From positions 1 to 54,363 of the forward strand of contig QZKJ01000027.1 of assembly GCA_003605035.1 (NCBI GenBank): a stretch of 54,363 nt of DNA, in the 5' to 3' direction. The translations under genes were made by a program, and so were the position numbers. Of this stretch, positions 48,564 through 54,309 are shown in pieces. The stretch is from Desulfurivibrio sp. (lineage in GTDB: Bacteria; Desulfobacterota; Desulfobulbia; Desulfobulbales; SURF-16). Position 1 is the stretch's first letter. Every line of letters starts with the position of its first letter. Under the pieces are notes generated by a model. It was not told the DNA's origin, made no database searches, and worked only from the letters and a program-made list of their open reading frames with translations.

Positions 48564-48980
48564 ATGGGAAAGGAGACAGATGCGGAACTGAATGCCTTTA
48601 TTGAAAAATGGAAAGAAACTCCCGAAAAAAACAGGGAGACGTTTCTGCATTTCAGAGAATACCTCGCCGGAAAAGAAGGCGTTACACTCGAATTCATTTC
48701 CAGACCCGGTGTCACGTATTCTCTCAGGGCTGCTCATGCCGTTCAGAAAAAAAAGGAACTTTTTGTCATGGTCGATGTGATCGAAGATGATCCCCGATGG
48801 CTTTCCGTCTGTTTTTTTGGTGAAATGATTAAAGATCCCGGAGAAAAAGGCGACTTTGTCCCCAAAGGTCTGCTCGGCGAGGATGCCGTCTGTTTCGATA
48901 TTGAAGAAAGAAATGAAGAACTTATCCGCTATATTGAATTCCGTCTTGATGAAGCCTGGCGGAGTGCCTCGGAGGGATAG
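48564..48980 (+). CDS. Conserved hypothetical protein, 138 aa
   Basis: A 138-residue soluble protein with a strong ribosome site (AAGGAG, 6 bases before ATG). An N-terminal helical part (LNAFIEKWKETPEKNRETF) leads to a beta-rich centre (VTLEFISRPGVTYSLRAAHA, LFVMVDVIEDDPRWLSVCFF) and a C-terminal helix (NEELIRYIEFRLDEAWRSA). The lone GEKGDFVPKGLLGEDAVCFD loop holds a Cys. I do not recognise the family beyond similarity to small proteins often seen in anaerobic Desulfobacterota. It lies 89 bases after the radical SAM gene on the same strand and may be co-transcribed. Confidence 0.75.
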   Translation: MGKETDAELNAFIEKWKETPEKNRETFLHFREYLAGKEGVTLEFISRPGVTYSLRAAHAVQKKKELFVMVDVIEDDPRWLSVCFFGEMIKDPGEKGDFVPKGLLGEDAVCFDIEERNEELIRYIEFRLDEAWRSASEG

Positions 48981-49181
48981 TGTTTTGTTCACAATGTTGC
49001 ATCAGGCAAAATATGCAGGAAGTGCTCCAGCGTACACAATAGCATTAAAGGGACCGGCGAACACCCGCGTTCTTCCGAGCAATGCAAGTTGAGCTGCATG
49101 AAAATTAAAGCCAAAGGTCGGCCGGCTCCTTATGCTTACATTGAACTTTCTTAACTTCTAATCAAATCCAGGAGAGCTGAC

Positions 49182-50528
49182 ATGAGCGTCAAAAAGAGTT
49201 TTGTGGTCATTGGCTGCGGCGGGGCCGGCGGACCGGCTGCTATTCTAACCAGCAAGATAAATCCAGACGTTGATGTGACGGTGATAAGGGCGGAACCCAG
49301 TTTTATTGTCCGATGAGCATTACCCTACGTTGTGGCCGGTCTGGCCACCAGTGAATCCCTGGTTGTCCCTGATGCCATGCTGAAAGATGCCGGCGTCACC
49401 GTTATCCGCGACAGGGTGACAGGCATTGACAGCGAGAAAAAAAATGTGACCCTGGCAGGGGGCCAGGTGCTTTCCTTTGACAAGCTTCTCCTGGCCAACG
49501 GGGCGGATCCTGTCTTGCCTCCGTTGCCGGGCCGGGACCTCCGGGGTATTTTCACCTTGCGCAGCACGCCGGATGCCGAGGCAATGCTGAAATTCATGCA
49601 GGAGAGGAAGCCCAGGAACCTCACGGTAATCGGGGCAGGCTTCATCGGCCTTGAGGTGGGCTCCCTCCTAAAGCAGGCCCAGCCGGATCTGCAGGTGACC
49701 GTGGTGGAATTTCTGCATCATCCCCTGCCGGTCATGCTGGATGCCGACATGGCCGCCAAGGTCGCTTCTTATCTTACCGAACAGGGAATGGATCTGCGCA
49801 CAGGCGTCAGGGTGACGGGAATTTCCGGAAAAGATGGCTATGCAAGCGGGGTTGAGCTGGATTCAGGCGATGTAACAGCTGCGGATATGGTCATCATGTC
49901 GGTTGGGGCCAAAAGCAACTTTGATCTTGCCAGGCAGGCCGGACTTGCCATCGGGGAGTTCGGCATAAAGGTAAACGAGTACATGGAGACATCGCACCCG
50001 GATATCTTTGCCGCGGGTGACAATGTGGAAAACAAATGCCTGGTTACCGGCCAAAGCATGCCCGGCCAGCTCAGGGGGACCGCTGTCTGTCAGGGACGTC
50101 TTGTCGCCAAACGGCTGAAAGGCGCGGCCATCCCGTTTCCAGGGGTGCTGAACAACTCCTGCGTCAAGCTGTTTGATCTCTGTGCCGCCAGCGTCGGCCT
50201 TACCGAGGAGAATGCCAAAAAACAGGGTATCAAAACAGCCTGTTTCACGGTTGACTCCCGCAGCAAGCATGGCATGATCAAGGGGATGAAGCCATGGACC
50301 CTGAAGGTGGTTTTTAACACGGAAAACAGAAAGGTTATAGGAAGCCAGATCGTCAGCATGAGCGAGGCCATGGCCAAGGAGATCGACGTCATGAACATGG
50401 CCATAAAGATGGGCGCGGTTCCTGAGGATCTATTGACCATCAACTGTGCCGGACACCCGGATCTTTCTTCGGAACCCAGCCTGGAACCCATATCCATCGC
50501 GGGACTCCAGGCATCAGGCAAGATTTGA
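49182..50528 (+). CDS. Selenocysteine-containing FAD/NAD(P)-disulfide oxidoreductase (CoA-disulfide reductase/NADH oxidase family)
   Basis: A 448-residue flavoprotein read through an in-frame UGA at codon 45 (49314-49316). It starts at ATG 49182 (ribosome site GGAGAG) with the FAD motif SFVVIGCGGAGGPAAI. The residue encoded by UGA sits in FIVR-U-ALPYVVAG, exactly where NADH oxidase, NADH peroxidase and CoA-disulfide reductase proteins have their redox-active Cys (C-x-x-P-Y). The rest follows in the same frame: LLLANGADPVLPPLPG, the NAD motif NLTVIGAGFIGLEVGSLL, FAAGDNVENKC, and a dimerisation domain ending LQASGKI. A hairpin fitting a bacterial SECIS follows the UGA. Role inferred: reduction of a disulfide, persulfide or CoA-disulfide. 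If UGA acted as stop, the redox residue and FAD site would be lost. Confidence 0.9.
49314..49348 (+). promoter_or_regulatory. UGA selenocysteine codon with SECIS-like hairpin
   Basis: UGA at 49314-49316 is followed, 15 bases later, by a perfect six-pair stem GTGGCC (49332-49337) / GGCCAC (49343-49348) with loop GGTCT. The loop starts with G and lies about 21 bases after UGA, within the range of bacterial SECIS elements recognised by SelB. Confidence 0.75.
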
Positions 50529-50735: not shown

Positions 50736-50804
50736 GTCATTCCGGCGAAGGCCGGAATCCAGGGATTTGTAGGAGTTCTGGACCCCGGCCTTTGCCGGGG
50801 TGAC
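50736..50804. repeat. Paired-hairpin repeat of the GTCATTCCGG...GGTGAC type
   Basis: GTCATTCCGGCGAAGGCCGG and, 40 bases on, CCCCGGCCTTTGCCGGGGTG, ending in GAC. The outer ends (GTCA ... TGAC) and each half are inverted repeats, and CCAG...CTGG flank the middle. Repeats of this design are scattered in many proteobacterial genomes. It lies in the promoter region of the downstream regulator gene. Confidence 0.75.
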
Positions 50805-51796: not shown

Positions 51797-52126
51797 CTAT
51801 AGCCCCCCCAGCAACCTGCGCTGGAGGAGCGTTTGCATATCTCGCCGGCCATCAGCAATGAGGTAGATATAGACATTTGCTTTGGCAATCCGATAGATGA
51901 TGCGATAAGGCTTAAAAAAAATCTCCCGATAATCACGAATTCCCAAAGCTATCAGTTCCTTCGGGTACACTCCCCGCTCCGGCAATTCGCTCAAACTGAC
52001 AAATTTTTTCTCGATCTCGTCAAGCACATGCTCCGCATTGTTTGCCGAGTCATGTTCTGATATGTATGTGTGGATGTCTTTGAGGTCAGCAGCAGCGTCT
52101 TCGGTGAGCAGAACCGTGAAAATCAC
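51797..52126 (-). CDS. RelE/ParE-family toxin
   Basis: A 109-residue toxin of the RelE/ParE fold: VLLTEDAAADLKDIHTYIS at the start, ELPERGVYPKELIALGI, YREIFFKPYRIIYRIAKAN and VYIYLIADGRRDMQTLLQRR at the end. The ParE-like length and helix pattern do not decide between mRNA cleavage and gyrase inhibition. It starts with GTG sharing one base with the antitoxin stop codon, so the two are translated together. Confidence 0.9.
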   Translation of the reverse strand: MIFTVLLTEDAAADLKDIHTYISEHDSANNAEHVLDEIEKKFVSLSELPERGVYPKELIALGIRDYREIFFKPYRIIYRIAKANVYIYLIADGRRDMQTLLQRRLLGGL

Positions 52127-52401
52127 TAGATCGATTCCTTTTTTTTACGAAGACGGTTTATTGCTTCAGTTGCTGAAACTACTTTCCCTTCTTCAATCTG
52201 ACGACTCCCAAGGGCAAGAATTTTAAGCAATGCCAAGGTTTCCTGGGTTTCCTCGTAACTCTTAATCCCTTGGATAATGACTTTAGCTTCTCCGTTTTGG
52301 GTAATGATGAGCGGATCTCCTTTGTCTTCAAAATTTCTGATGATCTCAGCGGCATGGGCCTTCAAGTAGCTGATTGGCTTAATTTGGCCAGATAATCTCA
52401 T
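52126..52401 (-). CDS. Phd/YefM-family antitoxin
   Basis: A 91-residue antitoxin with the Phd/YefM N-terminal DNA-binding fold (MRLSGQIKPISYLKAHAAEI, DPLIITQNGEAKVIIQGIKS) and an acidic C-terminal helix that should wrap the toxin. It precedes the toxin gene and overlaps it by one base. Confidence 0.9.
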   Translation of the reverse strand: MRLSGQIKPISYLKAHAAEIIRNFEDKGDPLIITQNGEAKVIIQGIKSYEETQETLALLKILALGSRQIEEGKVVSATEAINRLRKKKESI

Positions 52402-53112: not shown

Positions 53113-54309
53113 ATGCCGACAAGATTGATCAGAAATAGTATGCTGATTGTTTTGTGCCTCGGTTTTGTTCCCTTATCGTTTGGAGCCTTAACAGGCGATA
53201 AAATAGAGCAAAGGGTTGACAAGGACTCGATTGGTGTTGTCCATACCGGCACAGGAGACATCCACATAGGAATTACCCTTGAACAATATGAAGATGGGTT
53301 GAGGCGGCGAGCAAAAGAAGTGACAGAGCAGCTCGAGAAAGCTCACAACAGAGAACGCGAGGCGCTGCAGTCCCAACTCGATATCATCAAAAAACAGACT
53401 GCCGATATAGAACAGAGCTATAAGAATCATATCAAAGATTTGCAGGAAAGAATTTCACAACTTGAATCCATTCGAGGTCAGGTCCCGGATGAGTTATTGG
53501 ACCAGGCTCAGAATGCATTGGCAAAAGGCGACACCGAAAAAGCAGACAAGCTGTTTCAAGAGGTGGAGAAACAATCTCAGGGAGCTATCAAGGCGGCAGC
53601 TGAAGCTAATTACCAGCGCTGCAAAATTGCTGGAGATGCCATCAAGTATCAAGAGGCTTTACCGCTATGTGAACGAGCGGTTCAATTAGTTCCTAAAAAC
53701 GGCACTTATCTCAATTACACAGGATTGGTAGCCAATACCCTCGGTCGCTTTGGAGCAGCGAAAGATTACTACGAACAGGCCCTGGCCAGTGACCTGAAAA
53801 CCTATGGTGAAGACCACTCAACTGTGGCGAAAGATCGCAACAACCTCGGTTCAGCATGGCAGGCTCTTGGCGATTACCAGAAAGCCATCGTCTACTTGGA
53901 ACAGGCTCTGGCCAGTGACCTGAAAACCTATGGTGAAGACCACCCAACTGTGGCGGGAGATCGCAACAACCTCGGGACAGCATGGCATGATCTTGGCGAT
54001 TACCAGAAAGCCATCGTCTACTTGGAACAGGCCCTGGCCAGTGACCTGAAAACCTATGGTGAAGACCACCCCAAGGTGGCGATTATTCGCAACAACCACG
54101 GGACAGCATGGCTTGCTCTAGGCGATTACCAGAAAGCCATCGGTTGCTACGAACAGGCTCTGGCTAGTGACCTGAAAACCTATGGTGAAGACCACCCCCA
54201 GGTGGCGATTTATCGCAACAATCTCGGTTCAGCATGGTATTCTCTTGGCGATTACCAGAAAGCCATCTATGGTGGACCCCATCGTCAAGACAAATTTTCT
54301 CCCAAATAA
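53113..54309 (+). CDS. Exported coiled-coil/TPR protein, 3' end interrupted
   Basis: A 398-codon frame with a signal peptide (NSMLIVLCLGFVPLSFGA), a coiled coil (~55-115, EVTEQLEKAHNREREALQSQ), and tetratricopeptide repeats from ~120. The last part has four nearly identical 42-residue kinesin-light-chain-type TPR units (NNLGSAWQALGDYQKAIVYL, EQALASDLKTYGEDHP). The fifth unit breaks off after DYQKAI and a foreign tail YGGPHRQDKFSPK ends the frame. The full gene was probably longer. Such proteins mediate protein contacts in the periplasm. Confidence 0.8.
   Translation: MPTRLIRNSMLIVLCLGFVPLSFGALTGDKIEQRVDKDSIGVVHTGTGDIHIGITLEQYEDGLRRRAKEVTEQLEKAHNREREALQSQLDIIKKQTADIEQSYKNHIKDLQERISQLESIRGQVPDELLDQAQNALAKGDTEKADKLFQEVEKQSQGAIKAAAEANYQRCKIAGDAIKYQEALPLCERAVQLVPKNGTYLNYTGLVANTLGRFGAAKDYYEQALASDLKTYGEDHSTVAKDRNNLGSAWQALGDYQKAIVYLEQALASDLKTYGEDHPTVAGDRNNLGTAWHDLGDYQKAIVYLEQALASDLKTYGEDHPKVAIIRNNHGTAWLALGDYQKAIGCYEQALASDLKTYGEDHPQVAIYRNNLGSAWYSLGDYQKAIYGGPHRQDKFSPK
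53773..54267 (+). repeat. 126-bp tandem repeat encoding TPR units
   Basis: The marker GACCTGAAAACCTATGGTGA recurs at 53791, 53917, 54043 and 54169, an exact 126-base period. Copies are nearly identical at DNA level, so they arose recently or are kept alike by recombination. Confidence 0.9.

Follow-up and report, generated by a model that had tools for sequence, protein, structure and literature searches.

A UGA codon, almost certainly read as selenocysteine, at the redox site of a putative flavin-dependent reductase from Desulfurivibrio sp.

The window considered here is the whole of contig QZKJ01000027.1 of Desulfurivibrio sp. (assembly GCA_003605035.1), 54,363 nucleotides read on the forward strand. 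It carries a gene of 448 residues (positions 49182 to 50528, + strand) that starts with ATG at 49182, is preceded by a leader with a Shine-Dalgarno-like AGGAG (49167 to 49181, +) and ends with TGA at 50526 to 50528. The only internal stop in this frame is the TGA at 49314 to 49316 (+), codon 45, in the context FIVR-U-ALPY. Judged by comparison with homologous sequences, this seeming stop codon almost certainly encodes selenocysteine (Sec) as the reactive residue of a flavin enzyme. The frame 5′ of the UGA holds the flavin adenine dinucleotide (FAD)-binding GxGxxG motif as GCGGAG (residues 11-16; 49212 to 49229, +), and a candidate Sec insertion sequence (SECIS) stem-loop follows the codon at 49332 to 49348 (+). 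Further downstream, Cys422-Ala-Gly424 (50445 to 50453, +) contains a Cys specific to the clade, located in the column of the second coenzyme A-disulfide reductase (CoADR) tyrosine or two positions ahead of it. As the original prediction had it, standard open reading frame (ORF) calling begins at an internal GTG (49332 to 49334, +) and yields an ORF of 398 amino acids (49332-50528). A real redox enzyme is thereby trimmed, so that neither the cofactor motif nor the catalytic residue appears in the annotation.

Pyr_redox_2 and Pyr_redox_dim are among the five Pfam families found in the window protein. Its nearest named homologues come from two Desulfobacula metagenome-assembled genomes (85% and 84% identity), which points to a relationship with sulfate-reducing bacteria. 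The ratio of nonsynonymous to synonymous change (pN/pS) over codons 1-44 is 0.31 and 0.27 relative to the two Desulfobacula copies; these values, which rest on few changes, indicate that protein-level constraint also holds 5′ of the UGA.

The UGA is conserved well beyond this genome. We searched 257 genomes of the class (E≤1e-90) and a draw of 395 genomes from the phylum (E≤1e-70), counting the window's own locus in both. In the class, 20 of the 257 genomes, the window's own included, have a strong match, at 22 places in total. Exactly one TGA is present at 21 of these; the last one is a C-terminal fragment too short to include the UGA site. The phylum draw gave 14 places, six with one TGA and eight with none. 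With the named contigs included, 29 UGA loci were collected; two of these (L102 and L023) are the same locus, leaving 28 distinct loci, the window among them, and genome G050 holds two of the 28. The UGA is at residue 45 in every one of these loci (in L104 at residue 44, counted from the start codon adopted for it) and is followed by [AS]LP. Moreover, in an alignment of 35 proteins the residue-45 column contains only U (27 proteins) and Cys (eight), in agreement with the earlier claim that the UGA falls at the redox Cys of the family. A plasmid search returned, among the matches listed (5000 records), only sequences below 60% identity.

The stem-loop 3′ of the UGA consists of GTGGCC (49332-49337) and GGCCAC (49343-49348) flanking the loop GGTCT (49338-49342; GGUCU in the RNA). 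It lies 21 nt after the UGA, has 6 bp and scores -10.1 kcal/mol as a bare stem-loop. The bacterial SECIS rule, as it stands in the available part of a recent review (PMC13188914), specifies a stem of 4-16 bp, a loop of 3-9 nt with a G in the first two positions, a distance of 16-37 nt after the UGA and a minimum free energy of -7.5 kcal/mol or lower. The stem had been described as SECIS-like and correctly spaced relative to the UGA, and it conforms to this published rule.

Covariation gives weight to the hairpin. In an alignment of 28 rows (26 distinct), where columns 19-24 and 30-35 correspond to window positions 49332-49337 and 49343-49348, the stem is paired in 98.1% of 156 cells, compared with at most 50.6% in slid versions. 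Shuffles give a mean covariation score of 0.217, and none of the 500 reaches the observed 0.317. Both sides change in three of the six pairs, with A-U for G-C in eight distinct rows, C-G for U-A in one and A-U for C-G in one, and RNAalifold yields the identical 6-bp stem. The loop GGT is unchanged in all 28 rows. With L023 and L133 set aside, the inner stem and the loop are covered by fixed codons in the other 26 rows (GCC in 26, GGT in 26 and CTG in 25), whereas all four possible codons occur for Ala +1 and for Val +5. L023 has GCA GGT CTT, in which a compensating change restores the inner pair. No hairpin satisfying the SECIS rule was found in L125, a homologue with Cys. A search of the window against Rfam at the gathering cut-off gave no match.

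The machinery for decoding UGA as Sec is present in the window's own assembly. The original prediction had named selA, selB, selC and selD as the genes to look for, and all four were found: a tRNA-Sec (71.1 bits) with the anticodon tca (UCA), SelA (541.5 bits), SelB (362.9 bits) and SelD (379.6 bits). The selD gene itself carries one in-frame TGA, which we take to be at the usual redox position of SelD. The search for SelA covered 25 genomes that have the UGA gene and six that have Cys relatives only (31 in all), the genomes of L021 and L022 being left out of the Sec-machinery searches; it exceeds the cut-off in 19 of the 25 UGA-gene genomes. SelA, SelB and tRNA-Sec are also retained in G540, the genome with the Cys copy L125.

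With respect to family, the best NCBIfam matches of the window protein are CoADR models, both below cut-off (258.4 versus 578.8 bits for TIGR03385, and 224.2 versus 458 bits), and the TIGR03385 cut-off is strict, as it is passed by none of the 395 phylum genomes. Among solved structures, the best matches are CoADR enzymes and 6pfz, a persulfide reductase from Archaeoglobus fulgidus. The CxxP-type redox site is kept as U45 and P48. A common fold and a single redox residue adjoining FAD are shared with the CoADRs of Bacillus anthracis, Staphylococcus aureus and Pyrococcus. The NADH-dependent persulfide reductase 6pfz differs in having Cys instead of Sec and a C-terminal rhodanese domain; no rhodanese is among the five Pfam families of the window protein, which ends at residue 448. 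Hence, the original assignment to a CoADR/NADH oxidase family stands at the level of the superfamily (Pfam, NCBIfam and structure matches). It does not stand for CoADR or NADH oxidase proper, given the sub-cut-off TIGR03385 score and the absence of the signature residues of both enzymes throughout the clade.

These signature residues were examined in 25 clade rows, after removal of L102 (a duplicate of L023), the partial sequences L133 and L023, and L122, a near-copy of L105. CoADR uses two active-site tyrosines contributed by the partner subunit (361 and 419 in S. aureus, where the mutants Y361F and Y419F appear in PDB titles). In the corresponding columns, located by pairing with structure 3icr, the clade has Met at 365 (25 of 25) and Gly (8) or Cys (17) at 424, followed by a two-residue insertion at 430-431. 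Tyr424 is present in 40 of 40 Sec rows and in all 19 ungapped Cys rows of canonical CoADR relatives (4 of these 23 Cys rows are gapped). The clade motif at 422-424 is SAC in 17 and CAG in eight of the 25, and consequently all 25 have a Cys here. Cys at 422 or 424 is found in none of the 40 Sec and 23 Cys canonical rows (with the same four gapped) and in four of eight near Cys relatives. Within the FAD motif, 24 of the 25 clade rows share Cys12, which occurs in 0 of 71 other rows. The His in the first FAD loop is catalytic in NADH oxidase and NADH peroxidase. In contrast to the water-forming NADH oxidase and NADH peroxidase, the clade has Gly14 in this column in 25 of 25 members; the two sequences used as yardsticks, L041 and L044 (L055 was left out), have His. 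The predicted structure is that of a monomer, and its residues 362-367 and 424-429 have a predicted local distance difference test score (pLDDT) below 50.

A Sec form of the superfamily is already known, so the novelty of the present one is limited. According to the available parts of the sources, a table of 2006 includes a Sec "NADH oxidase" from Geobacter metallireducens (PMC1794560), one such Sec sequence was reported from ocean metagenomes in 2008 (PMC2398784), and reviews of 2022 and 2026 list the Sec family with WP_011365774.1 (PMC9312934, PMC13188914), an accession that appears to be the G. metallireducens protein. The motif given under TIGR03385 in the 2026 review is UGxP (PMC13188914), whereas the group of the window has U[AS]LP in 28 of 28 loci. 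In the parts of the literature available to us, no description of a U[AS]LP subgroup was found; the supplementary tables of a study reporting 34 putative selenoproteins in a marine deltaproteobacterium could hold the gene (PMC8318568). Another Sec flavoprotein oxidoreductase, the selenoprotein subtype of Type III sulfide quinone reductase (NF049943), is described in the available text as having the motif HxxU and belongs to a different family (PMC13188914); it is not among the best 25 of the 55 NCBIfam matches of the window protein. The same selenoprotein has been reported, in the part of the source at hand, as a COG1252 oxidoreductase (PMC12013277).

Thus, the family-level idea is already published, and what the alignments and the tree add is a separate U[AS]LP clade with an altered active site. 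In a tree of 97 rows, the 25 U[AS]LP rows and the Cys row L125 form a supported clade (Shimodaira-Hasegawa-like approximate likelihood ratio test, SH-aLRT, 99) apart from the canonical Sec rows. Constraining all 65 Sec rows to one clade was rejected (approximately unbiased test, p-AU 2.5e-60; 96 rows). The tree is a quick one with SH-aLRT support only, its rows were chosen and not random, the canonical Sec rows were picked for carrying a TGA, and it warns of long branches for L137, L134, L229, L228 and L146. The separation of the window clade from the UGxP form refers to relatives from the phylum and not to the Geobacter sequence itself. At least four changes between Sec and Cys are required by the tree, with gain and loss being indistinguishable. 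A loss of Sec in L125 was considered and not retained: L125 is nested among Sec rows, yet the test does not reject a grouping of the 25 Sec rows as one clade (p-AU 0.13). With L125, the U[AS]LP gene exists in a form that has Cys, in a genome (G540) that retains Sec machinery, and the two forms make a natural Sec/Cys pair; a pair of this kind would permit direct tests of the benefit of selenium.

The Sec form of the superfamily, known in the sources available from a few tabulated examples, can also be seen in its canonical branch. A TIGR03385 search of the 395 phylum genomes gave at least 41 rows with exactly one TGA. Forty of these were fetched (L196-L235), and in 40 of 40 the TGA is at the active-site column as UxxP, with UGxP in 17; the motifs are varied (UGIP, UETP, USEP, ULMP, UDLP and others). 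Given this placement of the UGA in all 40 of the one-TGA CoADR relatives fetched, single-cysteine flavoprotein reductases probably employ Sec far more widely than the published tables suggest. Several groups within L196-L235 look like further Sec branches. One subgroup (L208, L223, L231 and L234) has a near-perfect hairpin, GTATCTGGTCAGATAC, soon after the UGA (GTATCTGGTCAGGTAC in L234), the sequence of which is unlike that of the window's hairpin.

In enzymes of this class, electrons move from NAD(P)H to FAD and then to a single redox Cys, whose targets are disulfides, persulfides or polysulfides; bound CoA often mediates the reaction, as far as the available parts of the sources describe them (PMC7969121, PMC6026696, PMC9405070). 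By homology to the single-cysteine pyridine nucleotide-disulfide oxidoreductase superfamily, the window protein would be a homodimer and is probably an NAD(P)H-dependent FAD reductase that uses Sec45 as redox residue and acts on a small disulfide, persulfide or polysulfide bond. The Sec coding, the fold, the loss of the CoADR and NADH oxidase signature residues and the separate clade are established by the comparisons above; the reductase activity and the type of substrate are what we infer from them. SelB, directed by the hairpin just 3′ of the codon, would insert Sec at the UGA during synthesis. In the proposed cycle, NAD(P)H would reduce FAD, which in turn would reduce oxidised Sec45, and the Sec45 selenolate would attack the sulfur-sulfur bond. 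The resulting mixed selenylsulfide would be resolved by FADH2, possibly aided by Cys422 of the partner subunit at the place of the CoADR tyrosine. Across the clade, Cys422/424, which by homology would come from that subunit, could resolve the selenylsulfide with Sec45, a role that is speculative. With the CoADR tyrosines missing from the clade, CoA may or may not take part. It is possible, if rather doubtful, that the U[AS]LP group constitutes an undescribed class of Sec reductases in which Sec45 and Cys422/424 of the other subunit act as an inter-subunit selenylsulfide pair in place of the CoADR tyrosines, and that it acquired Sec in place of Cys independently of the UGxP form.

Other explanations of the UGA itself have to be considered. 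If it were a true stop or a sequencing error, the gene would be broken or begin at GTG 49332, which is what standard ORF calling yields. However, the short ORF is without the FAD motif, homology extends on both sides of the UGA, the hairpin covaries, the aligned homologues without UGA have Cys, and the UGA is kept in 28 distinct loci, all of which makes this explanation highly improbable. The 28 conserved loci likewise rule out a stop codon, a frameshift or a pseudogene. A recoded genome, in which UGA is read as another amino acid such as Trp, is hardly credible: we found no supporting evidence for it, the eight non-UGA rows have Cys and not Trp, the gene has a SECIS and the genome a complete set of Sec machinery, and the gene itself ends with TGA. 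Certain observations nevertheless weigh against a Sec-dependent reductase. Seven of the 28 stem-loops miss -7.5 kcal/mol in bare stem-loop scoring (21 reach it), 140 of the 1913 TGA triplets in the window also satisfy our version of the SECIS rule, and folding of the single sequence gives no significant signal (z of -1.84 over 29 nt and of +0.20 over 51 nt). The hairpin rises above chance because the UGA is kept in 28 distinct loci and the stem covaries. Six of the 25 UGA-gene genomes are without SelA over the cut-off; five of them are 72-86% complete, with tRNA-Sec in four and SelB in one. The sixth is G139, a single contig and 97% complete, where the UGA gene is accompanied by tRNA-Sec and SelB and the SelA match reaches just 19.4 bits. 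At E≤1e-80, none of five other genomes from the genus has the gene. Among 32 stretches compared (L023 and L170 being the same locus), no neighbour is common across the clade and no substrate is indicated, and we know of no measured activity for any clade member.

The nature of the enzyme can be questioned in the same manner. A genuine CoADR in Sec form, with a Sec45-CoA mixed selenylsulfide and the task of keeping CoASH reduced, would agree with the best NCBIfam matches, and we consider it unlikely: the tyrosines are replaced by Met365 and Gly/Cys424 in 25 of 25 members, there is the insertion at 430-431, and the TIGR03385 score of 258.4 bits falls short of the 578.8-bit cut-off, albeit one that 0 of 395 genomes pass. 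An NADH oxidase or peroxidase, in which a selenenic acid centre removes O2 or H2O2, is less probable again and indeed very unlikely, as the His column of NADH oxidase is Gly14 in 25 of 25 clade members, judged by two yardsticks. The reading as an NAD(P)H-dependent reductase of small sulfur-sulfur bonds is consequently the one we prefer.

As regards the gene neighbourhood, inferring a function from it was rejected for want of a conserved neighbour. The recurring neighbour ORF families occur in at most seven stretches each and, by eye, resemble ABC ATPases, response regulators or antisense ORFs. Three genes downstream of the gene are common to both Desulfobacula copies and missing from the window. 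In L187 (G577:C65), a canonical Cys CoADR gene lies closely 3′ of the U[AS]LP gene on the same strand, and L175, L177 and L185 have a second relative, 28-31% identical, within a few kb. In the window, an ORF of 138 amino acids just upstream of the gene (48564-48980, +) matches no Pfam family at E≤0.001. Downstream lies a palindromic GTCATTCCGGCGAAGGCCGGAATCCAG followed by a partly inverted copy (50736-50804), which resembles a dispersed intergenic repeat; its 27-base pattern occurs once in the window at up to three mismatches. Pfam matches further identify a ParE toxin/Phd-YefM antitoxin pair (51797-52401, -) and an ORF with very similar tandem tetratricopeptide (TPR) repeats (53113-54309, +; TPR_12, five stretches).
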